Below are positions 18,857-44,717 of a DNA stretch of 64,000 bases, piece after piece. The stretch is from Hydrogenophaga sp. (GTDB lineage: Bacteria; Pseudomonadota; Gammaproteobacteria; Burkholderiales; Burkholderiaceae_C): contig NZ_JAILWB010000002.1 in NCBI RefSeq assembly GCF_025699295.1, forward strand, positions 248,001 to 312,000. Reading direction: 5' to 3'. The position numbers and the translations under genes were made by a program. Under the pieces are notes generated by a model that saw only the letters and a list, made by a program, of their open reading frames with translations, was not told the origin of the DNA and ran no database searches. Each line of letters begins with the position of its first letter. Positions within the stretch are counted from its first letter, which is position 1.

Positions 18857-18879
18857 GGGGGACTCCGGTGGTGTGGTGC

Positions 18880-19575: not shown

Positions 19576-19600
19576 GGTGTGCTCCTTGGCAAGTGGATGA

Positions 19601-20668: not shown

Positions 20669-20680
20669 GGCATCGCTCCT

Positions 20681-23932: not shown

Positions 23933-23950
23933 GGCGGGTACCAGCTGAGG

Positions 23951-24741: not shown

Positions 24742-24751
24742 GTCGAACTCC

Positions 24752-28542: not shown

Positions 28543-29669
28543 ACTCCTTGTGCCCCGATAGGGCGGTTGACTTGAGCCTTGCGCTGAAGCTCATAGCGCA
28601 CGAGCAGGTCCATACCCAAGATGCTCAGCAGAAGTACCCCTTGAATCAAATAGCTCAGCGCACTGGGTAGCCCAAGCTCCATTTGCAGGTTAAGGCTGCC
28701 GATGTCAACCAGAGCAAGAAGCACTGCTGAGACGGCGATCGATGCCGGCTTCAATCGGCCCAGGTAGGCGGCCACGATCGCGGTGAACCCATAGCCGGGC
28801 ACCCAACCTGCCTGCAACTGCCCAAGAGACCCCGACACCTCAACTGCGCCCGCAAGTCCCGCTGCACCACCACTGAACAGGAACGCCACCCAGATGGCCA
28901 TAGGCTTTGAAATGCCTGCATAGGACGCAGCTCGCGCGGATTGGCCTGCAACGATGAGTTCATACCCGATTCGACTCTTGTCAATGAACAGGATCGTGGA
29001 GATGACGGCCACGACCGCGACGGCCAAGCCGAGGTTAAGCCGCGTCCCATCCCAAAGCGACCAACCCATGGCTGCCACGCCTGGCAGCGTCACATTGCTG
29101 TTAAAAAGCGCCGTCTCCGGAAAGTTGAGCCCTTGTGGGTCTCTCCAAGGTCCGCCCGTGAGCCAACTGAGCAGTTGCCCTGCGACGTACACCAGCAGCA
29201 GGCTCGATAGCGTTTCGTTCACAGAGAACCTGGTGCGCAGCATTGCTGGCAGCGCAGCCCAGGCGCCGCCGCCAAACGCCCCGCCAACCAGAACAGTGAA
29301 AGTGGCCAGCCATGTCGGCACATCAGGCGGCATGTGCAGTGCCACAGCGGTCGCGCCAATGCCCCCCAGGATGACCTGTCCTTCAGCGCCAATGTTGTTG
29401 ACGCCGGTTCGAAAGGCCACAGCCAGTCCGAGGGCTGTGATGCTAAGAGGGCACGCTTTGAGCAGCACCTCCGCTAAGCCGCCCAGGGACGACACAGGCG
29501 TGACGACCAACGTCACGATGCCTTTGATCGGTGGCGCACCTTGCATCGAAAAGAGCAAGGCGGACAAGAGGACTGTCATCGCGAGCGCCGCGAACGGCGT
29601 CATGCGCAAGGCCCACACTGACGGGCGCAGCCTGGGCGCGAGTTTGAAAGCAAGTACGGATGTATTCAT
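28539..29669 (-). CDS. ABC transporter permease, BMP/nucleoside class
   Basis: The protein is about 376 residues with many hydrophobic segments and the TGVNNIGAEGQVILGGIGA segment characteristic of the first permease of BMP-type importers. The ATG at 29669 starts just after the ATPase stop. An upstream start at 29711 would overlap the ATPase gene by about 30 bp and is also possible. It pairs with the downstream permease. Confidence 0.84.
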   Translation of the reverse strand: MNTSVLAFKLAPRLRPSVWALRMTPFAALAMTVLLSALLFSMQGAPPIKGIVTLVVTPVSSLGGLAEVLLKACPLSITALGLAVAFRTGVNNIGAEGQVILGGIGATAVALHMPPDVPTWLATFTVLVGGAFGGGAWAALPAMLRTRFSVNETLSSLLLVYVAGQLLSWLTGGPWRDPQGLNFPETALFNSNVTLPGVAAMGWSLWDGTRLNLGLAVAVVAVISTILFIDKSRIGYELIVAGQSARAASYAGISKPMAIWVAFLFSGGAAGLAGAVEVSGSLGQLQAGWVPGYGFTAIVAAYLGRLKPASIAVSAVLLALVDIGSLNLQMELGLPSALSYLIQGVLLLSILGMDLLVRYELQRKAQVNRPIGAQGV

Positions 29670-29679
29670 TGGTTGCCCA

Positions 29680-31212
29680 TCAAGCTGCAGCTTCGCTTGT
29701 AGCCGGCTCATCGAAGAGGCCCGCCATCCACAAGCCGAGCCGCTCTGTGTTCATCTGGTGGCGCGAGACCGCGGGGGAGAGCTTGCCCTTGGCGATGACC
29801 ATGATGCGGTCGCACATTTGCATGAGCTCATCAATGTCCTCGGAGCCCACCAGGATGGCGGAACCGGCCTGGGCCAACTCTGTGATCTGCTGGCGGATGA
29901 ACAAGGACGAGGCGATGTCCACGCCCCATGTCGGCTGCGCGACCAGCAGGACCTTCGGGCGTTTGCCCAGCTCCCGGCCGACGATGAACTTCTGCAGGTT
30001 GCCCCCGGACAGCGTGGACGCGGCCGAGTCGGCCCCTGCGCACTTCACGCCAAACTTGGCAATGGTCGCCTGGGCCATCTCTGCCAGCCTGGCTGAACGC
30101 AGAAAGCCAAGATGAGAGAACTCATCCGTCGATGCGCCAGCTTGCGACAACAAGAAGTTCTGCGTCAAGGACAGATCAGGCAAGGCGCCCTGGCCCACAC
30201 GCTCTTCCGGTATGTAGGCGATGCCAAGTGCCCGTCGCTTCTTCACGCCGACGGTGCCGGCCGACTTCCCCCCAACCTGGACCGCCCCTTCGGCCGACAA
30301 CCGCTCGCCACAAAGGAACTCGAACAGCTCCCTCTGGCCGCTGCCTGAAACACCGGCGATGCCAAGAACCTCGCCACTTCTTACCTCGAAATTCAGGTCT
30401 ACGAGCCTGACTTCGTCGGAGGTGCTTGGGGTAGATGAAAGGTGGACCACCTTGAGCACCACATCGCCAGGAGCCTTGCTTGGCCGCTCGTACACGGACA
30501 ATTCACGGCCGGTCATGAGCACCGCCAGTTCGCCCTCCGGCGTGTCGGCCACCGTGACCTCTCCGACGAGCCTACCCCCGCGCAGAACCGAGGCGTGGTG
30601 GCACAGTGACTTGATTTCTGCCAGCTTGTGGCTGATGTACAGGATGGCGCAACCATCGTCTGCCAGCTTGCGGATGCTGTCGAAGAGCGACGCGATGGCT
30701 GGCGCGGGGAGGACCGCCGTGGGTTCGTCGAAGATCACCAACCGCGGCTGCGAGAGCAGGCAACGCACGATCTCCACCTGCTGGCGCTCACCTACAGACA
30801 GGGCCTCTACCTTGCTGTCCAAGGCGAGCTGGAGCCCGTACTTCTGGGCGACCGAGGTCGCGCGCAGCCGGGTCTCCTGTTCCGTGCGGCCTGGCGGCAC
30901 GGAGAGCAGGATGTTCTCCAGCGTCGTCAGGGATTCGAACAAAGAGAAGTGCTGGAAGACCATGCCCACGCCCAGCTCGCGCATCTGCTGCGGGCCGAGA
31001 AAGTCGATCTCGCGGCCCGCCCAGATGATCTGCCCCTCGTCGGGCTGCACTGAGCCGTGGATGACCTTCATCAGCGTGCTCTTGCCGGCGCCGTTCTCGC
31101 CCACGATGGCGCGTATCTCACCCGGACGGACTTTGAGCGATACGCGTTCGTTTGCGATGACCCCGGGGTATCGCTTGCTGACCTCGATCAGCTCCAACAA
31201 TGGCTTCACCAC
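29680..31212 (-). CDS. ABC transporter ATPase with two nucleotide-binding domains
   Basis: The 510-residue protein has two ABC cassettes, as in ribose and BMP-type importers. The first has Walker A GENGAGKST (about 38-46) and the signature LSVGERQQVEIVRCL. The second has a degenerate Walker A (GVSGSGQRE) and the signature LSGGNLQKFIVGREL. The degenerate second site is usual for this class. It is cotranscribed with the BMP binding protein, 11 bp upstream, and with the permeases. Confidence 0.92.
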   Translation of the reverse strand: MVKPLLELIEVSKRYPGVIANERVSLKVRPGEIRAIVGENGAGKSTLMKVIHGSVQPDEGQIIWAGREIDFLGPQQMRELGVGMVFQHFSLFESLTTLENILLSVPPGRTEQETRLRATSVAQKYGLQLALDSKVEALSVGERQQVEIVRCLLSQPRLVIFDEPTAVLPAPAIASLFDSIRKLADDGCAILYISHKLAEIKSLCHHASVLRGGRLVGEVTVADTPEGELAVLMTGRELSVYERPSKAPGDVVLKVVHLSSTPSTSDEVRLVDLNFEVRSGEVLGIAGVSGSGQRELFEFLCGERLSAEGAVQVGGKSAGTVGVKKRRALGIAYIPEERVGQGALPDLSLTQNFLLSQAGASTDEFSHLGFLRSARLAEMAQATIAKFGVKCAGADSAASTLSGGNLQKFIVGRELGKRPKVLLVAQPTWGVDIASSLFIRQQITELAQAGSAILVGSEDIDELMQMCDRIMVIAKGKLSPAVSRHQMNTERLGLWMAGLFDEPATSEAAA

Positions 31213-31223: not shown

Positions 31224-32303
31224 TCAGCCACCAGGCGTGCCGACGACGCCCTCGACTGTCCAGTCCATGCGGTCACGATCCTGAGAAGGCAGGGAAGCCC
31301 CCGCGGCGACGCGCTGTACCCCTTTGCCGTCCTTGAACGGGCCGGCAAAGGCGTCCAACTTGCCCTGAATCGTCAGCTCGCGGTCGGCCTGGAACCGGGC
31401 CAAGGCCGCTGCAGGAATGAGCTTCTCGTTCAAGCCTCGGATATCGACGAACTTCTCGCGGAGGGAGCCGGCCTCGGCCGAGCTCTTCCAGGTGCCACCA
31501 AGCACCTGTGCCGCCTGACGAAGGTAGTAATCGGACCAATCGGCAACCACCGACCCCAGGCAGGTCTTCGGTCCGAAGGCGGCCATGTCACTGGTCCACC
31601 CGAACGAGTAAACACCACGCTCTTGCGCGACGGCTACCGGCGCGGTCGAATTGGCGTCCTGAAGGATGACATCCGCTCCCCCGTTGATCAGCGTGAGGGC
31701 AGCCAAGCGCTCCTTGCCCGGGTCATGCCACGCATTGATCCACACCACCTTGACCTGGATGGCCGGGTCCACCTTGCGGGCACCCAGCGTGAAGGCATTG
31801 AGGTTGCGGAAGATCTCCGGCAGTGGGACCGGCGCAACAAAGCCCAGCACCTTGGACTTCGTCACCGAGGCCGCGATGCCACCGGCCAGGTAGGTGCCGT
31901 CGTACATGTTGGCCGTGTAGCAGCTCATGTTGGGTGCGGTCTTGTAGCCGGATGCGTTCAGGAAGGTCGCCTTGGGAAATTCCTTCGCGACCTTGAGCAT
32001 CGAGTTCATGTACCCGAAGGTGGTGCCGATGACGAGCTGATGGCCCTGCATGGCCAACTGGCGGAACACACGCTCGGAGTCGGCCGTGTCCGGCACGTTC
32101 TCCACCCTGGTGACAACGACATCGGAGCCGTACTGCTTCTCCAGCGCGCGGATGGACAGGTTGTGCTGGTAGTTCCAGCCGGCATCGCCAATCGACGACT
32201 GGTAGACGATGCCGACCTTCAAAGGCTTGCCCGCCTGCGCGGCAAAGAGCGGCACCGTGCCTGAGAGCAGCGTCAGGCCGGACAGAAAATCGCGACGGTT
32301 CAT
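31224..32303 (-). CDS. BMP-family substrate-binding protein, Tat-type signal
   Basis: The 359-residue protein starts with a twin-arginine signal (NRRDFLSG) and a hydrophobic stretch ending near FAAQAG. The mature part matches the BMP/PnrA family of nucleoside-binding lipoproteins and periplasmic proteins (VGIVYQSSIGDAGWNYQH, VIGTTFGYMNSMLKVAKEFP, YDGTYLAGGIAA). It should deliver ligand to the ABC importer encoded downstream. Family ligands are nucleosides, purines and similar molecules. Confidence 0.87.
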   Translation of the reverse strand: MNRRDFLSGLTLLSGTVPLFAAQAGKPLKVGIVYQSSIGDAGWNYQHNLSIRALEKQYGSDVVVTRVENVPDTADSERVFRQLAMQGHQLVIGTTFGYMNSMLKVAKEFPKATFLNASGYKTAPNMSCYTANMYDGTYLAGGIAASVTKSKVLGFVAPVPLPEIFRNLNAFTLGARKVDPAIQVKVVWINAWHDPGKERLAALTLINGGADVILQDANSTAPVAVAQERGVYSFGWTSDMAAFGPKTCLGSVVADWSDYYLRQAAQVLGGTWKSSAEAGSLREKFVDIRGLNEKLIPAAALARFQADRELTIQGKLDAFAGPFKDGKGVQRVAAGASLPSQDRDRMDWTVEGVVGTPGG

Positions 32304-32318: not shown

Positions 32319-33125
32319 TCACAGCTTCCAGTGCAGGACCAGTTGGGGAACGCGTTCGGTGCTGCCCTTGGCACCGAACTTGTTTTTCCAGTACTGATAC
32401 TCCACGCCCATGTAGACATTGCCGGGCTTACCCCAGAAATCACCCACATCTAGCTTGAGTTGAGGTGCCGTGAGAATTTGTTGCTTGCAGGTGCCGTGGC
32501 CGCCGATGATGTCCATGTACCCGTCGAAGACAAAATTCAGGTTGCCCACCTTGAATGGGGCGCTCCAGTACGGGGTCAGCTGGTAGGTCGTTGTGCGCCG
32601 GCCGCACAGGGTGCCGCCACCGAAGCCGCCGTAGGTGCCCAGGTCGCGGTAGGCCACCACGTCGAAGTTGAAGTACGTGAACTTCGGGACATCGAGTTCG
32701 AAGCCCATGCCATAGGTGATAGCGGACGCGTTGGGCCGGAAGGCGCTGTTCTTGGCGCCATAGTTGTAGCCCACCTGCACGTTGACATCCTTCACCGGAC
32801 CGAAGGAGATGCTCTTGCCGGAGAGCTTCGACAGACTCAGATAGACATCCCCTTCGCTGTACATGCCGGCAGCGCGACCATCTTCTTCGGCCGTCTTCTC
32901 CAGCGTCAGGAAAAAGTAAGTCCGGCCCCAGCTTGACCCCGTCACGTTCTCGACCTCGAAGAGGTCCTTGGCGAACTTCGGCCCACCGGTCGAGCCGTTA
33001 TCGTTGAAGGTATTGCCACGCCGGTACTCGAAACTCGTTGTGCTCCAGTCGGCAGCAGTTGCGGCGACGGTCGTGGCCGATGCGAGGGTCACGGCGGCCA
33101 TCTTGCCCAGGAAACCAAGATTCAT
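32319..33125 (-). CDS. Tsx-like nucleoside-specific outer-membrane channel
   Basis: The 268-residue protein has a signal peptide ending near VAATAAD and an alternating beta-strand pattern ending in an aromatic-hydrophobic C-terminus (LVLHWKL). The pattern matches the Tsx/OmpK family (DWSTTSFEYRRGNTF, LFEVENVTGSSWGRTYFFLTLE, VYMGVEYQYWKNKFG). Tsx channels pass nucleosides and similar solutes. The ATG at 33125 has TAGGAG upstream and gives the signal peptide. It is the first gene of the ABC importer operon, so uptake is covered from outer membrane to cytoplasm. Confidence 0.85.
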   Translation of the reverse strand: MNLGFLGKMAAVTLASATTVAATAADWSTTSFEYRRGNTFNDNGSTGGPKFAKDLFEVENVTGSSWGRTYFFLTLEKTAEEDGRAAGMYSEGDVYLSLSKLSGKSISFGPVKDVNVQVGYNYGAKNSAFRPNASAITYGMGFELDVPKFTYFNFDVVAYRDLGTYGGFGGGTLCGRRTTTYQLTPYWSAPFKVGNLNFVFDGYMDIIGGHGTCKQQILTAPQLKLDVGDFWGKPGNVYMGVEYQYWKNKFGAKGSTERVPQLVLHWKL

Positions 33126-33502
33126 TGCAGAACTCCTATAAGTGGGGAAGTCGAAGGGGAGTGACATTTCTCAGGCCATGTCGTTGTTATTCGTGAAGCG
33201 GGTCTGCGACCTTGGGCAAGGGCACCTACATCGCCCACCGTCAGGGCGCACGAATCCGACCGCTGATGCATGAATCAATCAGCGCTGTGCGTCTGTCGGG
33301 TGGGTCTGCGAGCGGCCTGTTTGATATGGCTCAAGGCGCGACCTGGAGGCCACTGTATGGGGGCACCGTGACCTTGGATAGCAACAAAGCTGCAACGCTT
33401 GAGCCTCAAATATGGAACGCACCGAGCTGGCGCCCCAATAGGCAAGCGCCTGACGAGCAGATGGTGCTCGTCAGGCCCTGGGCTTTCTCAAGCGATCGCG
33501 AA
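33126..33502. other. Intergenic region between tsx-like gene and LysR gene
   Basis: The 377 bp should hold the promoter of the importer operon, reading left. I see no gene. A strong hairpin at 33448-33476 lies just past the LysR stop. No copy of the GTTCCA-N4-TGGAAC element found near 34.5 kb is present here. Confidence 0.5.
33448..33476 (-). terminator. Hairpin downstream of the LysR gene
   Basis: Perfect 12-bp arms GCCTGACGAGCA and TGCTCGTCAGGC enclose a five-base loop, 27 bp after the LysR stop codon. No clear T-tract follows on either strand, so it may be an mRNA-stabilising or weak terminator structure. Confidence 0.5.
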
Positions 33503-34456
33503 CTATCGCCTGGTGCTCGGAGTGAGCACGGACGCCACGTAGTTGTTAAGCTTGCCGATGTCTTCCATGCTCTGGGTGAGCATGTCGACAAACGAACGCA
33601 ACTTCTTGGAGGCGTAGCGGCTTCGCTGATAGGCGCAGTAGATTCGCTTCTGTTCCGGCTTCCACGCAGGCAGCACGGGCAACAGACCACCGCTCTTCAC
33701 TTCCGGTTGCGCGAAGAAGTCTGGCAGCAAGGCAAGCCCGAGACCGTCCACACAGAAGGTCTTCATCAGCCAGTAATCGTTGGTCCTTACTGCCACGCGT
33801 GACTGGTATTTGTGCGAGGTATCGCTGGAGTGCAGCATCACTCGTTCCGAGAATTCGGAGCGTTTCAAGACCACGGAGTTGTGTGCAGTCAACTCCTTTG
33901 GTTCCATCGGCATACCGTGACGCGCCACATATTGTGGGCTCGCGTAAAGACCAAACGAGAGCTTGCCAACTAGCTTGGCTACAACGTCAGGCACGTCAGG
34001 CGCGACCGCGCAGATGTAGCAGTCCACGTCATCAAGCCGGGGCGCATCTGACCGCTCGGCCGCATCCAGTTCGCAGAGCGTGTTCGGATGACTCTCCATG
34101 AACAACTTGATGACATGGCAGACGAACGTCGTGGTGAAGTGGTTGTCCGATAGAACCTTGAGCCGCCCTTTGCCACCCTGCGTCAGCTCTTGCACCTCGT
34201 GCTGGGCCGTCTCCCAACGGCCGCTCAGGTCGGCCAGCAGCGCCTCGCAGTGCGCGTACAGCATCTGTCCTGCCTCGGTGGGAGTGATTGTTCTGGCAGA
34301 CCTAATGAGGAGTTGGACTCCAAGCTCTTCTTCCAATCGCTGCAGCGACCTGCTCAGCGTTGCTTTGGCGACACCTGTCTGCGCCTCCGCCTTTGTGAGA
34401 CTCCCCGCCCTCATGATGGACGCGAATGCTTCGACAAGTTTCAGTTCCATGTTCAA
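33503..34456 (-). CDS. LysR-family regulator of the demethylation/uptake region
   Basis: The 317-residue protein has the N-terminal LysR helix-turn-helix (ELKLVEAFASIMRAGSLTKAEAQTGVAKATLSRSLQRLEEELGV pattern, residues 4-47 or so) and a substrate-binding-like effector domain. It is divergent from the BMP-Rieske operon and shares an intergenic region with two matching inverted repeats (34474-34489 and 34620-34635). The usual LysR role would be autoregulation and inducer-dependent activation of the divergent operon; the inducer is not known. Confidence 0.9.
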   Translation of the reverse strand: MNMELKLVEAFASIMRAGSLTKAEAQTGVAKATLSRSLQRLEEELGVQLLIRSARTITPTEAGQMLYAHCEALLADLSGRWETAQHEVQELTQGGKGRLKVLSDNHFTTTFVCHVIKLFMESHPNTLCELDAAERSDAPRLDDVDCYICAVAPDVPDVVAKLVGKLSFGLYASPQYVARHGMPMEPKELTAHNSVVLKRSEFSERVMLHSSDTSHKYQSRVAVRTNDYWLMKTFCVDGLGLALLPDFFAQPEVKSGGLLPVLPAWKPEQKRIYCAYQRSRYASKKLRSFVDMLTQSMEDIGKLNNYVASVLTPSTRR

Positions 34457-34635: not shown

Positions 34636-34741
34636 GCATCGTCCCCAGGGCACTCTTTAAACGGACCGCGTAGCCCTATAAATTCTCAACCATTCCCGCA
34701 GCATTTAGCTGCTCCGTGTTGCAGTGTTTAAAGGAGCGATG

Positions 34742-35812
34742 ATGAAACGGTCAATGTCTGTATGGCCAGCAAGCTTGGTGGTTGCACTAGCACCATCGCT
34801 TGCCCTGTCCCAGGAACCGACAAAAGTCGGATTTATCTACTTCGGACCTGTTAACGGCGCTGGCTGGACCTACCAGCATGACCTTGGCCGGCAGGAAATG
34901 CAGAAGGCCTTGGGCAATAGGGTGTCTGTCCAAACGGTGCCAAACACATCGGAAGGCCCCGATGGTGAACGCGTCGCGCGCGAGCTGTCGGCCGATGGTG
35001 CCAAGGTTATCTTCGCTGTCGGGTTCGGGTACATGCGAGAGGTTCTGCGCGTGGCGAGAGAGAACCCCGACAAGTGCTACGCCACAGCCAGTGCATACAT
35101 GACCGGCCCAAACGCCAGTGGCTACAACGCCAAGTGGCAAGAGGGCGGTTACCTGGCAGGTCTGGTTGCCGGCAAGATGACCAAAGCTAACCTCATCGGA
35201 TTCGTTGGCGCCAACCCGGTGCCGGACGTCATGTTGTACCTCAACGGCTTCGTACAGGGGGCTCGGTCGGTCAACCCCAAGGCTTCCGTGAAGGCGGTCT
35301 TTGTCGGCTCCTGGTCTGACCCGCCCAAGGAAGTAGATGCAGCCAACGCGCTGATGAACCAGGGCGTCGACGTGATGACCCACTACACGAACACACCGGC
35401 CGTGGTCAGCGCTGCCGATACGCGCAACGTCGCCTCCATCTCGTTTCACTCTGACATGCGCAAGTTCGCGCCCAAGCGTTACCTGACCGGGGTGACTCAC
35501 GAGTGGGGCAGCTACTACACGAGGATGACCTCGGAGGCGCTCGCAGGGCACTGCAAGGGCGGCCTGTACTTTGGCGGCATCAAGGAAGGGAACATCAAGA
35601 TGGCGCCCTTCAGCAGCTGGGTTCCCCAGGACGTGGTGGCGCTGGTCGCGGCCAAGAGCAAAGACATCGCCGAAGGCCGCCTGAAGGTGTTTTCTGGGCC
35701 CATGAAGGACAACCAAGGCAACCTGAAAGTGCCCGCTGGCGCCTCGTATCCAGATGCCGAACTGGGCAAGATGACCTGGTATGCCGAGGGCATCGTCGTT
35801 GGCAGGCTGTGA
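34742..35812 (+). CDS. Second BMP-family substrate-binding protein
   Basis: The 356-residue protein has a Sec signal peptide ending near SLALSQ and the BMP/PnrA fold (VGFIYFGPVNGAGWTYQHD, VIFAVGFGYMREVLRVARENP, WQEGGYLAGLVAGKM). It resembles the other BMP protein in the window but has a different signal peptide and lies with the oxygenase genes. AAGGAG precedes tandem ATGs at 34739 and 34742. It may feed the same ABC importer with the demethylation substrate, or serve as a sensor. It is the first gene of the catabolic operon. Confidence 0.87.
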   Translation: MKRSMSVWPASLVVALAPSLALSQEPTKVGFIYFGPVNGAGWTYQHDLGRQEMQKALGNRVSVQTVPNTSEGPDGERVARELSADGAKVIFAVGFGYMREVLRVARENPDKCYATASAYMTGPNASGYNAKWQEGGYLAGLVAGKMTKANLIGFVGANPVPDVMLYLNGFVQGARSVNPKASVKAVFVGSWSDPPKEVDAANALMNQGVDVMTHYTNTPAVVSAADTRNVASISFHSDMRKFAPKRYLTGVTHEWGSYYTRMTSEALAGHCKGGLYFGGIKEGNIKMAPFSSWVPQDVVALVAAKSKDIAEGRLKVFSGPMKDNQGNLKVPAGASYPDAELGKMTWYAEGIVVGRL

Positions 35813-35825
35813 GAAGGACGCCGCA

Positions 35826-36497
35826 ATGCGCAACATCACCTGGTACCCCGTCGTCCCGTCTCACCACTTAAGGCCCAGCGACAACATCGTCGCCGGGTTC
35901 ACCAAAGGTCAGGAGCTCGCGCTCTGGCGCAGCAAGGACGGGCTTGTTCAAATCTGGGAAAACCGTTGTCCGCACCGCGGAACCCGGCTGACCCTCGGCC
36001 GCATCATCGATGACCGCCTCTCATGCGCCTATCACGGCTGGGAGTTCAATGCGAACGACGGCAAGTGCGCCAGCATCCCCGCACACCCGAACACCCCGGC
36101 GCCCAAGCAGTTGTGCATCAAGACCTATGCGGCGATGGAAGCCGAGGGCATGGTCTGGGTGAGCCACGGCCAACCGTCGAGTGAAGCAGACGATGTCTGC
36201 CCGGAATCGACGGCGACTAAACGGTCGTACATCCGCAGCGTCGGGCTTCGCACCGGGCTCGATGACGTGGTCAGCGGCTTGACCGTTCATGGCTTTACCC
36301 CTTCCGCACCGTTCAAGTGGCAAGGAGCGCTCGCCGGTCACCCGGCCACTGTGTTTGTGACCGATGCGGGTGATGGCCTGGCCTTCGTGCATGCCTGGCT
36401 GGACAAGGGCTCGGACGCTGCAGCCCTGGCGCAAGGCCTGGCGGCGGTGAGCCGCTTGCGCGACGACATCGAGTCTCGAGCATCGTCAAGGAGCTGA
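35826..36497 (+). CDS. Stand-alone Rieske [2Fe-2S] protein (counterpart of the NdmD N-terminus)
   Basis: The 223-residue protein has a Rieske domain in its first 110 residues with ligands Cys48-His50 (CPHRGTRL) and Cys67-His70 (CAYHGWEF). The rest, about 110 residues, lacks the Fe(II)-binding Asn/Asp-His-His motif of oxygenase subunits, so it is an electron carrier and not an oxygenase. In the methylxanthine enzyme NdmD, as I know it, a Rieske domain is fused in front of the reductase; here it is a separate gene. It lies 3 bp before the oxygenase gene that lacks a Rieske cluster. A GAGAAGG site precedes the ATG. Confidence 0.8.
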   Translation: MRNITWYPVVPSHHLRPSDNIVAGFTKGQELALWRSKDGLVQIWENRCPHRGTRLTLGRIIDDRLSCAYHGWEFNANDGKCASIPAHPNTPAPKQLCIKTYAAMEAEGMVWVSHGQPSSEADDVCPESTATKRSYIRSVGLRTGLDDVVSGLTVHGFTPSAPFKWQGALAGHPATVFVTDAGDGLAFVHAWLDKGSDAAALAQGLAAVSRLRDDIESRASSRS

Positions 36498-36500
36498 AAG

Positions 36501-37370
36501 ATGACTTTCCAATGCAACGACCAGTCCATGCTGGACGATTGGCTGACCGTCGGCCCCGCCTCTCGCCTGGCGTCGGCCACCGAAGCGCGCCCCTTCCAGA
36601 CCAGGCTTCTCGGCGCGGAGGTGAGCCTGTTGCGTAGCGGCGGGCGTCCGGTGGCGCGCGTCGATGGCCAGGACGTGATGGTGCTGGAGGCGTACAGCTA
36701 CCTCTGGGTCTGCCCTTCGGGCAAGCCCCGGCGCACCCTGTTCGCCTTCCCGGAGTTCCACGAAGAGGGACGCCGCATCATCGACTGCGATGGCATCGGC
36801 GTGGCCACCTCCGGACTGCGCATGGTCGAGAACTTCCTCGACATGGGCCACTTTCCCTACGTGCATGCGAACTACCTGGGCCAGGTTCCCATGACCGAGG
36901 TGCCGGAGTACGACGTTGAGATCGACGAGGTGAACGACGAAATCTGGGCGAAGAATTGCAGGTTCTTTCAGCCCAGGACGTCCAAGTCGGCCACCACAGG
37001 CATCGAGGTGGGCTACCGCTACCGCGTCATGCAGCCCATGAGCGCGATGCTCTACAAGACGGCGTTCTCACGCCCGCAGGAGCAGGATGCCATCGGCCTG
37101 TTCGTCCAGCCCCATGACGAAGAACACATCACGGCGTTCTGCCTGCTGGCCTACTACGACGACGTGTCGACCGACACGGACCTCATCTCGTTCCAGCACA
37201 CCATCTTCGGGCAGGACAAGCCCATCCTCGAGAACCAGGTGCCCGCTCGGATGCCGCTAGAGCGCGGTGTGGAGATCCCGACACGCTGCGATGCGATGTC
37301 GGTGGCCTACCGCCGCTGGCTGACCGAGCGTGGCACGAGCTATGGCGCCATCGCGGCGAATGCCCCATGA
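36501..37370 (+). CDS. ndmC: Rieske-less non-haem iron oxygenase (NdmC-like)
   Basis: The 289-residue protein contains the mononuclear iron site of Rieske oxygenases: ENFLDMGHFPYVH at residues 110-122, with Asn111, Asp114, His117 and His122. It has no CxH...CxxH Rieske ligands. The N-terminal 80 residues look like a Rieske fold without its ligands. NdmC of Pseudomonas putida CBB5, the 7-methylxanthine N7-demethylase, is the known case of an oxygenase lacking its own cluster and depending on NdmD and NdmE. Size and neighbours match that case. Substrate is inferred, not shown. The stop overlaps the reductase start by 4 bp. Confidence 0.78.
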   Translation: MTFQCNDQSMLDDWLTVGPASRLASATEARPFQTRLLGAEVSLLRSGGRPVARVDGQDVMVLEAYSYLWVCPSGKPRRTLFAFPEFHEEGRRIIDCDGIGVATSGLRMVENFLDMGHFPYVHANYLGQVPMTEVPEYDVEIDEVNDEIWAKNCRFFQPRTSKSATTGIEVGYRYRVMQPMSAMLYKTAFSRPQEQDAIGLFVQPHDEEHITAFCLLAYYDDVSTDTDLISFQHTIFGQDKPILENQVPARMPLERGVEIPTRCDAMSVAYRRWLTERGTSYGAIAANAP

Positions 37371-38338
37371 AGGACTCCCGCGCATTCTTCGTCGAGCGCA
37401 AGTGGATGACGGCGACCGATGTCGCCGGTCTGCTGCTCGTCCCGGAAGATGGCTGCCCGGTTCCCCGGGTGGAGCCAGGTTCGCACATCGAGGTCTTCAT
37501 CGAGCGGCCAGGTCAACCCCTGCTCGTGCGCCAATACTCCCTGTGCAATGGTCCGAACGAAACGAACGGCTACGTCATAGCCGTGAAGCTGGAGGGGCAA
37601 TCTCGGGGCGGTTCGAAATGGATCCATGAACTTGAGGTCGGCAGCCTCGTCAATCTCGGCGCGATCCGCAACCTGTTTCCGCTGGCGCCAGCGGCAACCA
37701 AACACCTGCTCCTTGGCGCAGGCATTGGCATCACGCCATTGCTCGCCATGGCTCAGTCCTTGCACGGCACAGAAGCTGAATTCGAACTGCACTACTTCGC
37801 CAGGGCGAACGAGCACATTGCATTACGCGACAGGCTTCGCTTGCTCGAAAGCACGGGGTGCGTCCATCTCCACATCGGACTGGATGCCTCCGCTGTGGGA
37901 CAAGCCATTGCCACCCTGTTGACCCATCGAGATGCCGGCACCCACCTGTACCACTGTGGTCCCGGGCCCTTCATGGATGCGGTCGAGAAGGTGGCCGCCG
38001 GGGCATGGCCTGCAGAGCGGGTGCACGCCGAGCGCTTCCAGGCTTTGCCGCCACCGACTGCTGCAGGGCATGACACCTTCGTTGTCCGGCTCCACCGCAC
38101 AGGCGCTTCGTGCACCGTCGAAGCGGGCCAATCCATCACGGAGGCCCTGGCCGCGGCCGGGCATGGCATCGATGTCTCTTGCGAGCAAGGCGTCTGCGGC
38201 ACCTGCCTGACCAAGGTCATCGACGGAACCCCGGAGCACCGGGATGCCTATCTCAGCAAGACCGAGAAGGCGCGTGGAGACCAAATGCTTCCGTGCGTCT
38301 CCCGGTCCTGCTCCCCGTTGCTTGTACTCGACCTCTAA
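37367..38338 (+). CDS. ndmD: FMN/NADH oxidoreductase with C-terminal [2Fe-2S] ferredoxin (NdmD C-terminal part)
   Basis: The 323-residue protein has the phthalate-dioxygenase-reductase layout: an FMN-binding barrel (RQYSL at residues 55-59), an NAD-binding fold (GAGIGITPL at 118-126, HCGPGPFMDAV near 196-206), and a plant-type ferredoxin with Cys272, Cys277, Cys280 and Cys310. It passes electrons from NAD(P)H to a Rieske protein. VanB-type reductases share this layout, but linkage to a separate Rieske protein and an NdmC-like oxygenase favours an NdmD role. The gene starts inside the end of the oxygenase gene. Confidence 0.82.
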   Translation: MKDSRAFFVERKWMTATDVAGLLLVPEDGCPVPRVEPGSHIEVFIERPGQPLLVRQYSLCNGPNETNGYVIAVKLEGQSRGGSKWIHELEVGSLVNLGAIRNLFPLAPAATKHLLLGAGIGITPLLAMAQSLHGTEAEFELHYFARANEHIALRDRLRLLESTGCVHLHIGLDASAVGQAIATLLTHRDAGTHLYHCGPGPFMDAVEKVAAGAWPAERVHAERFQALPPPTAAGHDTFVVRLHRTGASCTVEAGQSITEALAAAGHGIDVSCEQGVCGTCLTKVIDGTPEHRDAYLSKTEKARGDQMLPCVSRSCSPLLVLDL

Positions 38339-38351
38339 GAAACACGCCCCC

Positions 38352-38987
38352 ATGAAGCTCTACGACTACGAGCTGTCTGGCAACTGCTACAAGGCCAGGC
38401 TGCTACTGAACTTCCTCAACATCCCTTGCGAGCGCGTCTCCGTGGATTTCTATCCCGGCAAGGAGCACAAGTCCACGCGCTTCCTTGAAGAGGTCAACCC
38501 GCTGGGCCAGATCCCCGTGCTTGAAGACAACGGGTTCCTGCTGCGGGATGCGCAGGCCATCCTCACCTACATCGCCTCGCGCTTCGACATCGAGCAGAAA
38601 TGGTATCCCGATGACGCCAGGCTGCGCGGCGAGGTCCAGATCTGGCTGGGTGTGGCCGGGGACATCACGCGCACGGCCTCGGCGGCGCGCCTGCACGATG
38701 CCTTGGGCTACCCCTTCGATGTCGACGTGTGCCGCGCCGAAGCCCGTGGCGTGTTCCGCATGCTCGATGACCACCTCGCCTCCCGTCAGATGCTGGGTAG
38801 CCAGTGGCTGGTGGGCTCTCACGCCACCATCGCCGACATCGCTTGTTTCCCCTACGTGGCCCTGTCCACCGAGGGCGGCATCCCGCTGGACGAGTTCCCG
38901 GCCATCCGCCAGTGGCTTTGGGCCTTCCGCTCTCAGAAGGGCTTCATCGGCATGGCCGGAATCATGCCCATCGAGATCCCCTGCTGA
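38352..38987 (+). CDS. ndmE: Glutathione S-transferase-like protein (NdmE-like)
   Basis: The 211-residue protein has a GST N-terminal thioredoxin-like domain (KLYDYELSGNCYKARLLLNFLNIP, NPLGQIPVLED and the glutathione-binding DAQAILTYIA) and an all-helical C-terminal domain (GSHATIADIACFPYVAL). In the methylxanthine system, NdmE is a GST-like protein needed structurally for the NdmC-NdmD complex. The location between reductase and oxygenase genes fits that. A catalytic glutathione-transfer role is also possible. The ATG at 38352 gives the standard GST N-terminus. Confidence 0.78.
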   Translation: MKLYDYELSGNCYKARLLLNFLNIPCERVSVDFYPGKEHKSTRFLEEVNPLGQIPVLEDNGFLLRDAQAILTYIASRFDIEQKWYPDDARLRGEVQIWLGVAGDITRTASAARLHDALGYPFDVDVCRAEARGVFRMLDDHLASRQMLGSQWLVGSHATIADIACFPYVALSTEGGIPLDEFPAIRQWLWAFRSQKGFIGMAGIMPIEIPC

Positions 38988-39030
38988 CGCCCACCCGCCT
39001 TTCCACTTTCCCGCCCCACTGGACGTAGAC

Positions 39031-40080
39031 ATGAAACCGTTGATTGAAGACCGGAGCTTTCTGAAGCACTTCTGGCACCCCGTCTGCACGCGCGCAGAAC
39101 TTGAAGAGGCCCATCCATCCGGTCGAGGCCCTCATGCCGTGACCTTGCTTGGACGCAAGCTGGTGGTGGCGAACCTGGGTGGCCGCATCGTCGCGATGGA
39201 CGACCGCTGTGCGCACCGTTTTGCCGCGCTGTCCAAAGGCACGGTGGTGGGCGACACCCTGCGCTGCAACTACCACGGCTGGAAGTACGACACCGAGGGC
39301 AAGGTGGTGAACATCCCCGCGTGCCCAGAGCAGCCCATCCCTAAGAAGGCCTGCGCGACATCGTACGACTGCGAGGTCAAGTACGACCTGGTCTGGGTGC
39401 GGCTGGACAGCTCATGGGACTGTACCGACATCCCCTATTTCAGCGAGTGGGATGCACCGGGCATGCGCAACCTCGTCGTGCCCTCGTACACCTGGAACAC
39501 GGCCGCGGAGCGCCGCTGGGAGAATTTCACAGACCTGTCCCACTTTGCCTTCGTGCATCCTGGCACGCTGTACGACCCAGCCTATGACCGTCCGCCCATC
39601 CCTGCAGTCGACCGCGTGGAGGGCGAGATGCGGTTCGCCATCGAGCCCCCGCCCGAGATGCTGGAGAACCTGCCTGAGAACTGCCCGATGGGCTCCTTCA
39701 CCTACCGGTGCTCGATGCCTTTCTCGATCAACCTGAAGATCCAGCTCTACCGCGACGCGACGGCGTTCACGCTGTGGACGACGAGCTGTCCCATTGACGA
39801 CACGCACTGCCGCAACTTCCTCATCATCAGCCGGGCGCAGAAGGACGACGACCCCGACCACGCACACGCCGCGTTCCAGAAGCTGGTGCTGCAGGAAGAC
39901 CAACCCATCATCGAATCGCAGTGGCCCGCCGAGATCTCGATGGACGAGGTGTCCATCGTGACCGACAAGGTCTCGAACCAGTACCGCAAATGGCTTCGCG
40001 AGCTCTCCATGGCCGCGCTCGAGGGTAAGGACGCCTTCGCGGCTGTCTTGCGCACCCAGGTCATTGACGAGCGTCGATGA
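39031..40080 (+). CDS. ndmA: Rieske non-haem iron oxygenase (NdmA/NdmB-like N-demethylase)
   Basis: The 349-residue protein has complete Rieske ligands (Cys60-His62 in CAHRFAAL, Cys79-His82 in CNYHGWKY) and the iron site ENFTDLSHFAFVH (residues 164-176). The opening LKHFWHPVCTRAELEEAHPS, the RLDSSWDCTDIPYFS segment and the ending VSNQYRKWLREL closely match the NdmA/NdmB methylxanthine N-demethylases as I remember them. Such enzymes oxidise an N-methyl group and release formaldehyde. Whether it is closer to NdmA (N1) or NdmB (N3) cannot be decided here, so the symbol is provisional. Confidence 0.8.
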   Translation: MKPLIEDRSFLKHFWHPVCTRAELEEAHPSGRGPHAVTLLGRKLVVANLGGRIVAMDDRCAHRFAALSKGTVVGDTLRCNYHGWKYDTEGKVVNIPACPEQPIPKKACATSYDCEVKYDLVWVRLDSSWDCTDIPYFSEWDAPGMRNLVVPSYTWNTAAERRWENFTDLSHFAFVHPGTLYDPAYDRPPIPAVDRVEGEMRFAIEPPPEMLENLPENCPMGSFTYRCSMPFSINLKIQLYRDATAFTLWTTSCPIDDTHCRNFLIISRAQKDDDPDHAHAAFQKLVLQEDQPIIESQWPAEISMDEVSIVTDKVSNQYRKWLRELSMAALEGKDAFAAVLRTQVIDERR

Positions 40081-40119
40081 CGCCCGCATCCCATCATCCT
40101 TGCTTGAGGCCTCTTGTTC

Positions 40120-41142
40120 ATGAAGTTCCCGTTCTCTCTCGGCTGCAACGGTCGGGGCGTGGTCCACATCGAAGGGACCCCTATCTCGGTGGACGAGCAG
40201 TTCCGGCTGCTCAAGTCCGCTGGCGTCTACGACCACTTCGACCGCATGCCGCAGCCTGGCGAAGAGCGTGAGTACCTGGATGCCGCCAACCGGCATGGCA
40301 TCCCCATCCGCACCGGCCTGTGGTGGTACACGGCCGGCCAGGACGAAGCGCTGCTGGAGAAGAACCTGCGCATCAGCAAGGAAGGTGGCGCCGAGTTCCA
40401 CGACATCATGCTGCACATCCGGCATGCGCGGGGCACCGTTCTCACCGACGATGACATCGTCGCCTTCTATGAACTGGCACACGAGCTTGGCGAGCGCATC
40501 GGCATCGAGGTGGGCCTGGAGAACCACATCTACATGTGGTCGGAAGACCCCCGGCGTATCACGCCGATCGCCCGCAAGGTCCAAGCGCGGGGCCTGCCGT
40601 TCAAGTACGTGCTCGACCACAGCCACGTGCTGATCAAGGTGGACAACGTGGAGGAACAGGACATCATCGGCATCCGCGCGGACGTCGAGAACGGCAGCCT
40701 GCTGATCGACCCCTATGAGTCCGGCAACGTGCTGGACGAATGGATCGGCATGAACATGGTGCACTGGCTCCAAGTGCGGCCAGTGTCGCCGAACGGCCCC
40801 AAGAACCGCTGGGCCATTAAGAACAACAACAGCTATGACGGTGGCGCGTACGGCCGCCCTTGCCAGTACCCCTTCGTCAAGCCCAAGGCGGGTGAGTGGC
40901 ATTCGCAGTGGCATGCCTATCGGGTCGAGCCCTGCAAAGAGGTGGTCCGCAAGGCGTTTCGCCACCACATCACCACGCCCGACAGCCCCCTGCGCTACAT
41001 CACCACCGACATGATCGACATGGCGGACTACGGCGAGAACGCCAGGTACTCGCTCTTCGAGCAGAACGTCGCCATCGCAAGCTGGCTGAGGTCGACGTGG
41101 GACGACATGGTGGCCGAAGCCACGTTGAAGACCGGGCCGTGA
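40120..41142 (+). CDS. TIM-barrel protein, xylose isomerase/mannonate dehydratase-like
   Basis: The 340-residue protein resembles xylose-isomerase-like TIM barrels. Possible metal ligands appear in GIEVGLENHIYMW (Glu and His), the KYVLDHSHVLI segment (Asp, His, His) and AEFHDIMLHIRHARG. Databases often label such proteins as mannonate dehydratase-like, but nothing here indicates sugar acid metabolism. It lies between the Rieske oxygenase and the formaldehyde dehydrogenase in the same operon. It could act on the demethylated product or on a ring-opened intermediate. I do not know a counterpart in described caffeine pathways. Confidence 0.65.
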   Translation: MKFPFSLGCNGRGVVHIEGTPISVDEQFRLLKSAGVYDHFDRMPQPGEEREYLDAANRHGIPIRTGLWWYTAGQDEALLEKNLRISKEGGAEFHDIMLHIRHARGTVLTDDDIVAFYELAHELGERIGIEVGLENHIYMWSEDPRRITPIARKVQARGLPFKYVLDHSHVLIKVDNVEEQDIIGIRADVENGSLLIDPYESGNVLDEWIGMNMVHWLQVRPVSPNGPKNRWAIKNNNSYDGGAYGRPCQYPFVKPKAGEWHSQWHAYRVEPCKEVVRKAFRHHITTPDSPLRYITTDMIDMADYGENARYSLFEQNVAIASWLRSTWDDMVAEATLKTGP

Positions 41143-41192
41143 CGCCTCTGATGTCCCTTTGACGCCCCTTTGAAATTCGAAAGAAGCTTGAT

Positions 41193-42299
41193 ATGAAAAC
41201 AAAAGCCGCTGTGGCGTGGTCCGCCAATGCCCCCCTCACCATCGAGACGGTCGACCTGGACGGCCCCAGGTTCGGCGAGGTCCTGGTCGAGGTCAAGGCC
41301 ACGGGCATCTGCCACACCGACTACTACACCCTGTCCGGCGCCGATCCCGAAGGCATCTTCCCGGCCATCCTCGGGCATGAAGGTGCCGGCATCGTGGTGG
41401 ACGTGGGCCCGGGCGTGACCTCGCTGAAGAAGGGCGATCACGTCATCCCTCTTTACACGCCCGAATGCCGCCACTGCAAGTTCTGCCTGTCCCAGAAGAC
41501 CAACCTCTGCCAGCAGATCCGCAGTACCCAGGGCAAGGGCCTGATGCCTGACGGCACCAGCCGCTTCAGCCTAGATGGCAAGCCCATCTTCCATTACATG
41601 GGCACGAGCACCTTCGCCAACCACATCGTCGCGCCCGAAATTTCGCTGGCCAAGATCCGGAAGGACGCACCGTTCGACAAGGTCTGCTACATCGGCTGCG
41701 GCGTCACCACGGGCATTGGCGCCGTGCTGTTCACGGCTAAGGTCGAGGCCGGTGCCAACGTCGTCGTGTTCGGCCTGGGCGGCATTGGCCTGAACGTGAT
41801 CCAGGGCGCGAAGATGGTCGGGGCCGACAAGATCATCGGCGTCGACGTCAACCCTGCACGACAGGCCATGGCTCGCCAGTTCGGCATGACGCACTTCCTG
41901 AACCCGAACGACCACGAGAACATCGTGGACACCATCGTGCAACTGACGGACGGCGGCGCCGACTACAGCTTCGAGTGCATTGGCAACACCAAGGTGATGC
42001 GCCAGGCGCTGGAATGCACTCACAAGGGCTGGGGCCGCAGCATCATCATCGGCGTGGCAGAAGCCGGCGCCGAGATCAGCACCCGCCCCTTCCAGCTGGT
42101 CACGGGCCGCAAGTGGGAAGGGTCCGCCTTCGGCGGCGCGCGTGGTCGCACCGATGTGCCCAAGATTGTCGACTGGTACATGGACGGCAAGATCGACATC
42201 GACAGCCTCATCACCCACACCATGCCACTTGAGGACATCAACAAGGGCTTTGACCTGATGAAGCGCGGCGAGTCCATCCGCGGCGTTGTCGTCTACTAA
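41193..42299 (+). CDS. frmA: S-(hydroxymethyl)glutathione dehydrogenase (class III alcohol dehydrogenase)
   Basis: The 368-residue protein is a class III zinc alcohol dehydrogenase. Catalytic zinc ligands are in GICHTDYYTLSG and GHEGAGIV, the structural zinc cysteines in CRHCKFCLSQKTNLC, and the NAD fold in GLGGIGLNVIQGAK. It oxidises the adduct of formaldehyde and glutathione to S-formylglutathione. Its place right after the demethylase genes indicates removal of formaldehyde released by N-demethylation. Confidence 0.93.
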   Translation: MKTKAAVAWSANAPLTIETVDLDGPRFGEVLVEVKATGICHTDYYTLSGADPEGIFPAILGHEGAGIVVDVGPGVTSLKKGDHVIPLYTPECRHCKFCLSQKTNLCQQIRSTQGKGLMPDGTSRFSLDGKPIFHYMGTSTFANHIVAPEISLAKIRKDAPFDKVCYIGCGVTTGIGAVLFTAKVEAGANVVVFGLGGIGLNVIQGAKMVGADKIIGVDVNPARQAMARQFGMTHFLNPNDHENIVDTIVQLTDGGADYSFECIGNTKVMRQALECTHKGWGRSIIIGVAEAGAEISTRPFQLVTGRKWEGSAFGGARGRTDVPKIVDWYMDGKIDIDSLITHTMPLEDINKGFDLMKRGESIRGVVVY

Positions 42300-42306
42300 G
42301 TGGCGG

Positions 42307-43193
42307 ATGGATCGGATGACCCTGGCCACCCTTCACGTAACGGCAGAACACACCTGCTACGGTGGAGTTCAGCGCTTTTATCGTCACGACTCGGCAGAAA
42401 TCGGTCTACCGATGAACTTCTCGGTGTTCCTGCCACCGAAGGCAGTGCTGGAGCCCGTTCCTGCCCTGTTCTATCTGGCCGGGCTCACCTGCACCGAAGA
42501 GACCTTCATGGTCAAGGCCGGCGCACAACGTCTTGCAGCCTCGCTGGGCCTTGCGCTCATCGCGCCGGACACCAGCCCGCGCGGCGCCAACTTGCCTAGC
42601 GAGCGCGAGGCCTGGGACTTCGGCGTCGGGGCCGGCTTCTATCTGGATGCCCCTGGTCGAGCCACTGGCGCATGGAGAGCTACCTGCTCAAGGAACTGCT
42701 TCCACTCGTGGAGGCAATGCTGCCGATAGACGGTCGCCGCATCGGCATCCTAGGCCACTCCATGGGCGGCCATGGGGCACTGACCCTGGCTCTGCGCCAT
42801 CCTGGACGGTTTCGCTCCGTCTCGGCCTTCGCCCCGATCTGTGCGCCGAGCCGGTCCCCCTGGGGCGAGAAGGCCTTTGGCAAGTACTTGGGCCCCGACC
42901 GCGCGGAGTGGCTGCGCCATGACGCGACGGCGTTGATGGGCGAGCAAGTCAAGGCGCCTTACCCGAACGGTATCCTGCTCGACCAGGGTCTGGCAGACAA
43001 GTTTCTTGAAGAACAACTGAGGCTTGCCCTGTTCGAATCTGCATGCCACGCCGTCAACCAGCCTATCACCGTGCGCCGGCACCATGGCTACGACCACGGC
43101 TACTACTTCATCCAGTCGTTCATCGCCGACCATCTGGAGTTCCACGCCGACCGCTTGGGGAAAGGGCGAAGACACCCTCCCTTGAGCTTCTAG
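42307..43193 (+). pseudogene. frmB: S-formylglutathione hydrolase, interrupted by a frameshift
   Basis: Two overlapping frames encode the two parts of an esterase D/FrmB protein. The first (42307 to about 42650) gives FSVFLPPKAVLEP, YLAGLTCTEETFM and the GVGAGFYLDA segment. The second (from about 42651) gives HWRMESYLLKEL, the nucleophile motif GHSMGGHGAL, and the C-terminal HHGYDHGYYFIQSFI with the catalytic His. The frames meet at a run of four Cs after GATG; one additional C restores a single frame reading DAPWSSHWRMESY. This may be a true one-base deletion or a sequencing error. Intact FrmB hydrolyses S-formylglutathione to formate and glutathione. Confidence 0.85.
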
Positions 43194-43730: not shown

Positions 43731-44717
43731 TCAAACTGCAGCTTGGGTGGTCACGGTGCCGTAAGTCTTGGCATACATGTCAGCGATGTGCTCACCGACC
43801 GTGCGCTCACTGTGAGGAAGCGTGATATCGCCCTCGAAATGAGCCAAAGGCTTGATCTTGTAGTGGTAGCTCGGGTCAAAGAACGTGGCCACGGAGTACC
43901 GGTGCCGATTTGGTGCTGTGTTCAGCACACGATGCATGTTCGAGTTGTAGAGCCCTTTGGTCAGGACCGGCACCATATCGCCCAGGTTGATGACAAACGT
44001 CCCGGGAATATGCGGCGCGCGAACCCAATCACCGCTCGCGTTACGCACCTCCAGGCCGCCCACATCGTCCTGAAGCAGCATCGTCAACATGCCCCAGTCC
44101 GTGTGCGCACCGGCTCCAATCTGGTTGCCTTGACCGACACCATTTTGCGGCGGGTAATGCAGAAGACGGGTGGTGAGCATTGGGTGCTCCAGCCCCTCAG
44201 CGAAGTGGTCTTCTGGGAGCTCCAGCGACAGGGCCAGTACCCCCAGAAGATGCTTACCCAGCGCAGTCATCGCCTGAATGTAGTCCTCGGTTTGCGCGCG
44301 CATCTCACCGTACGAGGCTGGCCACTGATTGAGACTGTTGAACTCACCGTTCGTCGTGTACGCCTGCTTTCCGTCGACGCCGGCCATGAAGCCTTCTTTG
44401 AGATCGGGCTGAGAACCGTCGTCCAGTGTCTGACTCGACATCGGCTCATAACCACGCATCGAGGGCGAATGGGCAACGTCCAGCTTGAGTTTCTCGGCCT
44501 GGGGCAGGTCAAAGAACCTTCTGGCGCACTCCAACTGCTTGTCCAAAAGGTCCTGTGGCACCCCATGGTTGGAGACATAGAAAAAGCCGGTCTCTCGGCA
44601 GGCCTTGTGCACCTCCCACGCGACGACCTTCTTGGCATCGGTGTCGCGGGAAAAGCTGCCAGTCAGGTCAATGACCGGGATTGCCTTGGCAGCAGAGGCT
44701 GGGGTGTAAATAACCAT
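43731..44717 (-). CDS. 2-oxoglutarate/Fe(II)-dependent oxygenase, isopenicillin N synthase type
   Basis: The 328-residue protein has the DIOX_N region (IPVIDLTGSF, ACRETGFFYVSNHGVP) and the 2OG-Fe(II) core with HTD in GAHTDWGMLTML (His about 206, Asp 208), the distal His in NSNMHRVLN (about 261) and the RYSVATFF arginine that binds 2-oxoglutarate. Members hydroxylate or ring-modify small molecules. Clustered with the demethylase operon in opposite orientation, it may act on the demethylated product, but no substrate can be read from sequence. Confidence 0.87.
   Translation of the reverse strand: MVIYTPASAAKAIPVIDLTGSFSRDTDAKKVVAWEVHKACRETGFFYVSNHGVPQDLLDKQLECARRFFDLPQAEKLKLDVAHSPSMRGYEPMSSQTLDDGSQPDLKEGFMAGVDGKQAYTTNGEFNSLNQWPASYGEMRAQTEDYIQAMTALGKHLLGVLALSLELPEDHFAEGLEHPMLTTRLLHYPPQNGVGQGNQIGAGAHTDWGMLTMLLQDDVGGLEVRNASGDWVRAPHIPGTFVINLGDMVPVLTKGLYNSNMHRVLNTAPNRHRYSVATFFDPSYHYKIKPLAHFEGDITLPHSERTVGEHIADMYAKTYGTVTTQAAV

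Follow-up and report, generated by a model that had tools for sequence, protein, structure and literature searches.

An operon-like gene run in Hydrogenophaga with an unfused Rieske and reductase chain and a predicted two-subunit NdmC-like N-demethylase

Can an N-demethylase of the NdmCDE kind be built with its electron-transfer parts on separate polypeptides, and how would its incomplete oxygenase proteins have arisen? This question is raised by five adjacent genes at positions 35,826 to 40,080 of a 64,000-nucleotide stretch of Hydrogenophaga sp. DNA (contig NZ_JAILWB010000002.1, positions 248,001 to 312,000; hereafter the window), which is part of contig C12 of a 4.69 Mb genome (G000). In passages of a 2015 paper, NdmCDE is described as a system whose Rieske domain has left the oxygenase and become joined to a reductase (PMC4408171), and the structure of the NdmCDE complex is given as still unsolved in an excerpt of a 2026 paper (PMC13237722). 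In the window, the Rieske and reductase functions are instead encoded by two genes that flank the gene of an NdmC-like oxygenase. All five genes lie on the + strand, with intergenic distances of 3, -4, 13 and 43 bases:

35826-36497, +, Rieske protein of 223 amino acids, equivalent to the NdmD N-terminus (Pfam Rieske, E 9e-21)
36501-37370, +, NdmC-like mononuclear-iron oxygenase subunit of 289 amino acids, without the cluster-binding part of a Rieske domain (VanA_C, E 8e-21)
37367-38338, +, reductase of the phthalate dioxygenase reductase/VanB type with flavin, NAD and C-terminal plant-type [2Fe-2S] parts, equivalent to the NdmD C-terminus
38352-38987, +, NdmE-like protein of the glutathione S-transferase (GST) family (GST_N_3, E 9e-14)
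39031-40080, +, full Rieske oxygenase of the NdmB (N3-demethylase) type, with Rieske and VanA_C domains

We propose that these genes belong to a methylxanthine-type N-demethylation operon with an unfused electron chain, in which the Rieske and NdmC-like proteins form one heteromeric oxygenase. The activity is predicted from sequence, and we give this reading a probability of about 0.72. Gene identities, metal ligands, the specificity pair and partial folds were read from sequence or models; from these we infer the complex, the electron path, the substrate, the N7 position and the uptake route.

The first-pass annotation of this DNA had assigned the set to the Ndm system, which is borne out by a gene-by-gene alignment to the canonical ndm cluster of Pseudomonas putida MT178 (L048). 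This strain served as a stand-in for P. putida CBB5, whose NdmC, NdmD and NdmE sequences did not turn up in searches; in comparisons with the CBB5 structures, the MT178 proteins reach 765 bits (NdmA) and 785 bits (NdmB). All parts could be aligned, at 35-58% identity: NdmC at 43%, the GST-like protein at 50%, NdmB at 58% and the TIM-barrel protein of the cluster at 40%, with the Rieske protein matching the N-terminus of NdmD (35%) and the reductase its C-terminus (40%). Domain and structure matches confirmed the reductase and the GST-like protein; among solved structures, the reductase matches phthalate dioxygenase reductase (2pia, E 1.2e-48) and the NdmD ferredoxin (6icm_D, E 2.2e-19). For none of the five core proteins did any NCBIfam model reach its cut-off.

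The CBB5 NdmCDE enzyme, a 7-methylxanthine N7-demethylase, shares with the window a Rieske-less iron oxygenase with a GST-like partner, the Rieske, flavin, NAD and plant-type [2Fe-2S] modules, and a neighbouring NdmB-type gene and frmA, as described in passages of PMC4408171. The window GST-like gene, like the gene of NdmE, adjoins the NdmC and NdmD equivalents; according to the same source, the known enzyme depends on its GST-like protein both to be soluble and to be active. In contrast, CBB5 NdmD is one fused polypeptide, the window parts are 35-50% identical to their MT178 equivalents, and no NdmA-type gene was found in the window genome. All NdmD modules are present in the window, on two polypeptides, as had been claimed. 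A split of an NdmD gene by assembly error or frameshift was rejected, since the NdmC-like gene stands between the two parts and other genomes repeat this order. The same five-gene order is found at loci L001, L003 and L004, and at L007 without the NdmB-type gene; the layout is therefore neither chance nor a sequencing split. Over 8,441 bases, a contig binned as a Planctomycetota metagenome-assembled genome (MAG; L002) and the Piscinibacter MAG contig L003 agree at 99.99% identity, so the two are not independent and one bin is probably contaminated.

The protein encoded at 39031-40080 had been described as a full Rieske oxygenase resembling NdmA and NdmB, and it matches these two far above any other solved protein: NdmB ranks first (6icl; 480 bits, E 3.3e-143), NdmA second (443 bits), and the next reaches 110 bits. 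Two NdmA sequences among the solved structures differ at two positions, N/F versus Q/L, and the Q/L version corresponds to entries titled 'NdmA QL mutant'. At this pair, which separates N3- from N1-demethylases, the window protein carries Q283/L287, the same residues as CBB5 NdmB. Across 11 sequences, Q/L is present in all 7 of the NdmB branch and N/F in all 4 of the NdmA branch, and the window protein is placed in the NdmB branch (7 sequences, support 100/98). The best reading of this protein is therefore a predicted N3-demethylase; unlike CBB5 NdmB, it is about 58% identical to the MT178 copy and presumably fed by an unfused reductase. An NdmA-type gene lies close by in L001 (Pelomonas sp. 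KK5), L003 (Piscinibacter MAG) and L004 (Azohydromonas australica), and the second oxygenase gene of L004 is likewise N/F.

The two metal sites of a complete alpha subunit are divided between the first two genes, with the Rieske ligands in 35826-36497 and the iron site in 36501-37370. The ligands C48, H50, C67 and H70, which had been read exactly, are conserved in the Rieske protein alignment in 37 of 37 sequences, window included, for C48, H50 and H70, and in 36 of 37 for C67; the lone exception, with G at this position, is the divergent Rieske sequence of L053. The iron-site residues of the NdmC-type protein, which had been placed at residues 110-122, are equally constant: N111, D114, H117 and H122 are found in 43/43 aligned sequences and D239 in 42/43, the sequence of L009 being cut by a contig end. 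None of the 43 NdmC-type sequences shows any of the four Rieske ligands, with L108 (189 amino acids) cut before that region, so that the NdmC-like protein shows no cluster site that the first reading had overlooked.

Each of the two proteins also appears to retain a vestige of the half that it has lost. The opening portion of full-length Rieske domains is still recognisable in residues 1-75 of the NdmC-like protein (hhalign 98%, E 6e-14), and the match then skips the cluster-binding part. Its AlphaFold2 model (mean predicted local distance difference test, pLDDT, 81.8) matches SxtT across nearly its whole length (query-normalised TM-score 0.81). The Rieske protein exceeds ferredoxin length, and its model (pLDDT 90.0) contains a second domain, in which five strands and two helices make up a reduced catalytic-type fold that lacks the iron ligands. 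Foldseek comparison with whole Rieske oxygenases gave query-normalised TM-scores of 0.61-0.74 among the 50 matches listed; with 117 of the 223 residues, the Rieske part by itself would stay at or below about 0.52, so the second domain adds to the score. The middle region of the Rieske protein is also present in fused NdmD proteins. A profile of its C-terminal region, built from 37 sequences, matched the NdmC catalytic domain around the LFVQP strand (76%, E 2e-5); none of 100 column shuffles exceeded 1.3%, and reversing the profile gave 0.08%. Judged from these profiles and models, the two proteins look like whole Rieske oxygenase subunits with opposite halves eroded after subunit duplication. 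SxtT and GxtA, the top solved-structure matches of both halves, are by comparison single full-length subunits carrying both metal sites.

A simpler history would be fission with no duplication, a single cut that left the Rieske and catalytic parts of one ancestral oxygenase on two genes. The two genes are indeed adjacent and in the domain order of a full oxygenase, and the profile match that ties the Rieske C-terminus to catalytic domains is short and was not obtained with the full-length group. However, each domain is present twice, as a Rieske-domain start in the NdmC-like protein and as a catalytic-type fold in the Rieske protein, which a single cut cannot explain; we consider fission improbable.

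Separate genes for all modules were found in the window and at L001, L002/L003, L004, L007, L053 and L108. A larger class has the Rieske, NdmC-type and GST-like genes in a mapped stretch without reductase (L005, L006, L008, L050, L051, L087-L091, L096, L098, L100, L102, L105 and L106; in L105 the NdmC-type genes lie several kilobases from the Rieske-GST pair). This three-gene combination is present in many Burkholderiales and rhizobial loci; the claim that such a set is rarely seen together is thus only partly right. The NdmD-type Rieske-reductase fusion occurs at L010-L013, L047-L049, L052, L095, L097, L099, L101 and L103. Two further arrangements were each seen once: in L093 a single frame (7447-9732) joins an NdmC-type part (residues 159-434) to a reductase (452-761), with a separate Rieske gene, and the 418-residue protein of L104 joins a Rieske domain to a plant-type ferredoxin without the flavin part. 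L054, which is frameshifted, and L009, which ends inside NdmC, were left out of these classes. NdmC-type proteins were present in 7/250 genomes of a family sample and 15/398 of a phylum sample, both including the window genome and both according to our sorting of the match lists; the same-genus genomes with matches listed (G114 and G208) had full-length-type matches only.

A Rieske partner, free or fused, accompanies the NdmC-type gene in 42/42 mapped loci, some of which overlap, so that fewer than 42 are independent. A GST-like gene is present in 40 of the 42, the misses being L009 (contig end) and L107, which overlaps the GST-containing L105. This association bears on a second alternative, that the Rieske protein shuttles electrons to the NdmB-like oxygenase as a small ferredoxin of the ordinary kind, in a three-component system, and that the NdmC-like protein is a remnant, either non-catalytic or supplied independently. 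Oxygenases commonly work with Rieske ferredoxins, and the Rieske protein aligns weakly to carbazole ferredoxin (E 0.008). Yet the partner accompanies NdmC-type genes even where the stretch has no NdmA/B gene, the NdmC-like protein has kept its iron ligands, and the Rieske protein has a second, oxygenase-like domain. Such a shuttle is thus very improbable.

In the trees, NdmC-type sequences formed a single clade (support 100), as did the Rieske sequences (98; 94 after long-branched sequences were dropped). In a tree joined by locus, the pair formed one clade (100/100) that grouped (100/99) with a set of full-length oxygenases that an NdmC query had retrieved and whose genes mostly neighbour one of the BMP type; a grouping of the pair with NdmA/B was rejected (approximately unbiased test, p-AU 0.006). 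HpxD, annotated as a xanthine hydroxylase subunit, is likewise a full-length Rieske oxygenase whose name implies purine use. It was rejected as the closest full-length relative, because annotated HpxD proteins score best with other sequences: HpxD is about 30% identical to its best-scoring NdmC-type sequences, whereas the other full-length group, nearer to the pair, is 34-36% identical to HpxD in its best sequences.

Rieske-reductase and Rieske-ferredoxin fusions formed one group in four trees (support 89, 99, 100/99 and 97), and in the joined tree and both later single-half trees this group required one change of state. The long-branched, unfused L053 sequence fell within the fused clade in the first Rieske tree; the divergent Rieske and divergent NdmC sequences of L053, L029 and one of two Ruegeria outgroup sequences were dropped, where applicable, from the later half-trees and the joined tree. 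The full-length sequences had been picked at 300-500 amino acids, a limit that would hide reductase fusions; when all 24 such loci were examined without this limit, 0/24 had a reductase match inside the oxygenase frame. A single clade of all split forms was not rejected (p-AU 0.21), and the direction of change therefore depends on the full-length outgroups without a reductase fusion. The proposal that the window holds an ancestral or alternative form accordingly finds support in the fusion group and the unfused full-length loci, but not in the test of the split-form clade.

These data suggest that reciprocal erosion of two whole subunits was the origin of the system, which differs from the published split-and-fuse description. 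We give even odds to a fuller model, in which NdmC and its Rieske partner would be duplicated subunits with opposite losses, alternating in a heteromeric oxygenase in which electrons cross only where a Rieske cluster faces an iron site. The GST-like protein would fill or cap the position that the eroded domains cannot hold, and the NdmD fusion would be a later step, the older two-subunit design having been re-wired in at least three ways (Rieske-reductase, catalytic-reductase and Rieske-ferredoxin). In our literature search, no title or abstract found mentions an unfused system or reciprocal erosion; the 2013 'Caffeine junkie' paper, which lay outside that search and from which a passage of PMC4408171 takes its 18 organisms with ndmCDE homologues, may show separate rhizobial Rieske genes.

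The core genes are part of an operon-like + strand run with small gaps (34,724-42,299), which opens with a BMP-type gene and has FrmA as its last complete gene. The remaining features of the run and its surroundings are as follows:

34724-35812, +, BMP/PnrA-type substrate-binding protein of an ATP-binding cassette (ABC) system, opening the run (Pfam Bmp, E 1.6e-48)
40120-41142, +, TIM-barrel protein recurring in ndm clusters (40% identical to the TIM-barrel protein of the MT178 cluster)
41193-42299, +, S-(hydroxymethyl)glutathione dehydrogenase, FrmA, for formaldehyde disposal (TIGR02818, 629 bits; cut-off 544)
42286-43193, +, S-formylglutathione hydrolase, FghA/FrmB, in two overlapping frames with a break near 42,660-42,680
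33503-34456, -, LysR-family regulator, divergent (LysR_substrate, E 5e-30; HTH_1, E 7.5e-16)
32319-33167, -, Tsx-like nucleoside channel (Channel_Tsx, E 3.4e-9)
31224-32303, -, second BMP/PnrA-type substrate-binding protein (Pfam Bmp, E 1.4e-50)
27598-31212, -, ABC transporter with permeases at 27598-28542 and 28539-29711 and ATPase at 29680-31212 (BPD_transp_2, ABC_tran)

A BMP-type gene also lies upstream of the Rieske gene in L001, L002/L003, L005 (as two frames), L006 and L009. The TIM-barrel gene recurs in several genera (L001-L003, L047-L049, L052, L054 and L099), and its window copy had no Pfam or NCBIfam match. The two fghA frames, 42286-42729 and 42672-43193, align to residues 1-112 (49%) and 123-280 (47%) of MT178 FghA; the break is either an assembly error or genuine decay. 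Xanthine dehydrogenase is encoded on contig C8 of the same genome (TIGR02965, above cut-off).

We propose the following route for these genes: theobromine to 7-methylxanthine to xanthine. The NdmB-like protein would take off the N3-methyl group, and the Rieske and NdmC-like pair, held by the GST-like protein, would act as one heteromeric oxygenase removing a further N-methyl group, most likely N7, to give xanthine. Electrons would pass from NADH through flavin and the plant-type [2Fe-2S] cluster of the separate reductase to the Rieske cluster, and from there across the subunit interface to the mononuclear iron of the NdmC-like protein (H117, H122 and D239). D114, which we take to be the counterpart of the bridging aspartate in other Rieske oxygenases, is the likely bridge at this interface. 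The NdmB-like enzyme, which has a Rieske domain of its own, probably receives electrons through that domain from the same reductase. Formaldehyde would be passed to FrmA, uptake may proceed through the BMP-type ABC system and the Tsx-like porin, and xanthine would be oxidised by the xanthine dehydrogenase encoded elsewhere. Theobromine and 7-methylxanthine are the likely substrates, and the source strain is predicted to use theobromine.

The N7 position is suggested by L001, L003 and L004, in which the unfused set is accompanied by genes of the NdmB type (Q/L) and of the NdmA type (N/F), leaving N7 as the sole caffeine methyl group for the NdmC-like pair. The same architecture could serve another N-methylated or substituted purine, with the NdmB-like gene encoding the only true methylxanthine enzyme. 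Many mapped NdmC-type loci lack an NdmA/B gene, and the window NdmC-like protein and canonical NdmC fall in different branches. The rhizobial trios of Rhizobium sp. Pop5 (L050) and Agrobacterium CFBP7129 (L051) share with the window a separate Rieske gene followed by the NdmC-type and GST genes, but have no reductase in the mapped stretch and carry an amidohydrolase and their own BMP-type ABC transporter in place of NdmB and FrmA. However, in the window and L001-L004 the NdmC-like gene stands in one run with the NdmB-type gene and FrmA is encoded within that stretch, and another substrate would leave L001, L003 and L004 without any N7 enzyme. We therefore regard another purine as unlikely, although the least unlikely of the alternatives considered here.

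Several observations weigh against the proposed N-demethylase and its origin by reciprocal erosion. The C-terminal profile match of the Rieske protein spans only 37 columns and was obtained with NdmC only; the 37-sequence test against the full-length group gave 1.2%, and an earlier, smaller test was weak throughout (NdmC 34%, full-length group 0.5%, NdmA/B 0.1%). In the NdmC-like model, pLDDT falls below 50 at residues 118-132, the iron-site loop holding H122. Each half-tree alone leaves the grouping with NdmA/B unrejected (p-AU 0.57 and 0.55), and the deep order depends on one joined tree flagged for long branches. With regard to substrate, the 43% identity to canonical NdmC leaves room for another compound, and the solved-structure search of the NdmC-like protein, which returned zero NdmC entries, puts SxtT above NdmA/B. 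In the window genome, the next NdmA match after the NdmB-like protein reaches only 36%, and the fghA frame is broken although frmA is intact.

The comparison of the two halves predicts the position of the Rieske partner in the complex, and thereby offers an architecture for NdmCDE. Moreover, the unfused version parts the Rieske function from the reductase function, so that single electron-transfer steps could be assayed separately, and its components may serve as interchangeable modules in caffeine sensors and in the production of methylxanthines.

Further observations concern the relatives and the surroundings of the cluster. Tandem NdmC-type genes precede one NdmD fusion in L010-L013, L095, L097 and L101, including Aminobacter and Ruegeria loci; copies 1 and 2 fall in separate clades where placed (those of L011 and L097 are outside the tree), and perhaps represent two specificities on one electron chain. 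A Komagataeibacter nataicola plasmid from kombucha (L053, 10053-15543) carries two Rieske/NdmC/GST trios, one very divergent, and an NdmB-like gene. Rhizobial-type trios beside an amidohydrolase and a BMP-type transporter were found at L050, L051, L096, L098, L100 and L102; their GST carries an ES pair where most other sequences have DA, and the best NCBIfam model for the L050 amidohydrolase is 8-oxoguanine deaminase (368 bits, below the cut-off of 532).

In the window, conjugation genes (within 9490-27283), including VirD4/TraG (12663-14714), TrbL (19601-20668) and VirB4 (21106-23616) types, and transposases on both sides (25817-27283 and 52451-54022) surround the cluster, which suggests that it sits on a mobile element. 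On contig C8, an uncharacterised purine island (70000-86000, L109) has a full-length Rieske oxygenase with genes for guanine deaminase and a BMP-type ABC transporter close by, and the xanthine dehydrogenase at 86373-88694. A 2-oxoglutarate/iron oxygenase gene at 43731-44717 (- strand) of the window recurs near ndm clusters: the Paraburkholderia caffeinilytica protein is 70% identical, P. putida KF715 has two copies, and the protein of a Klebsiella plasmid is 54% identical.

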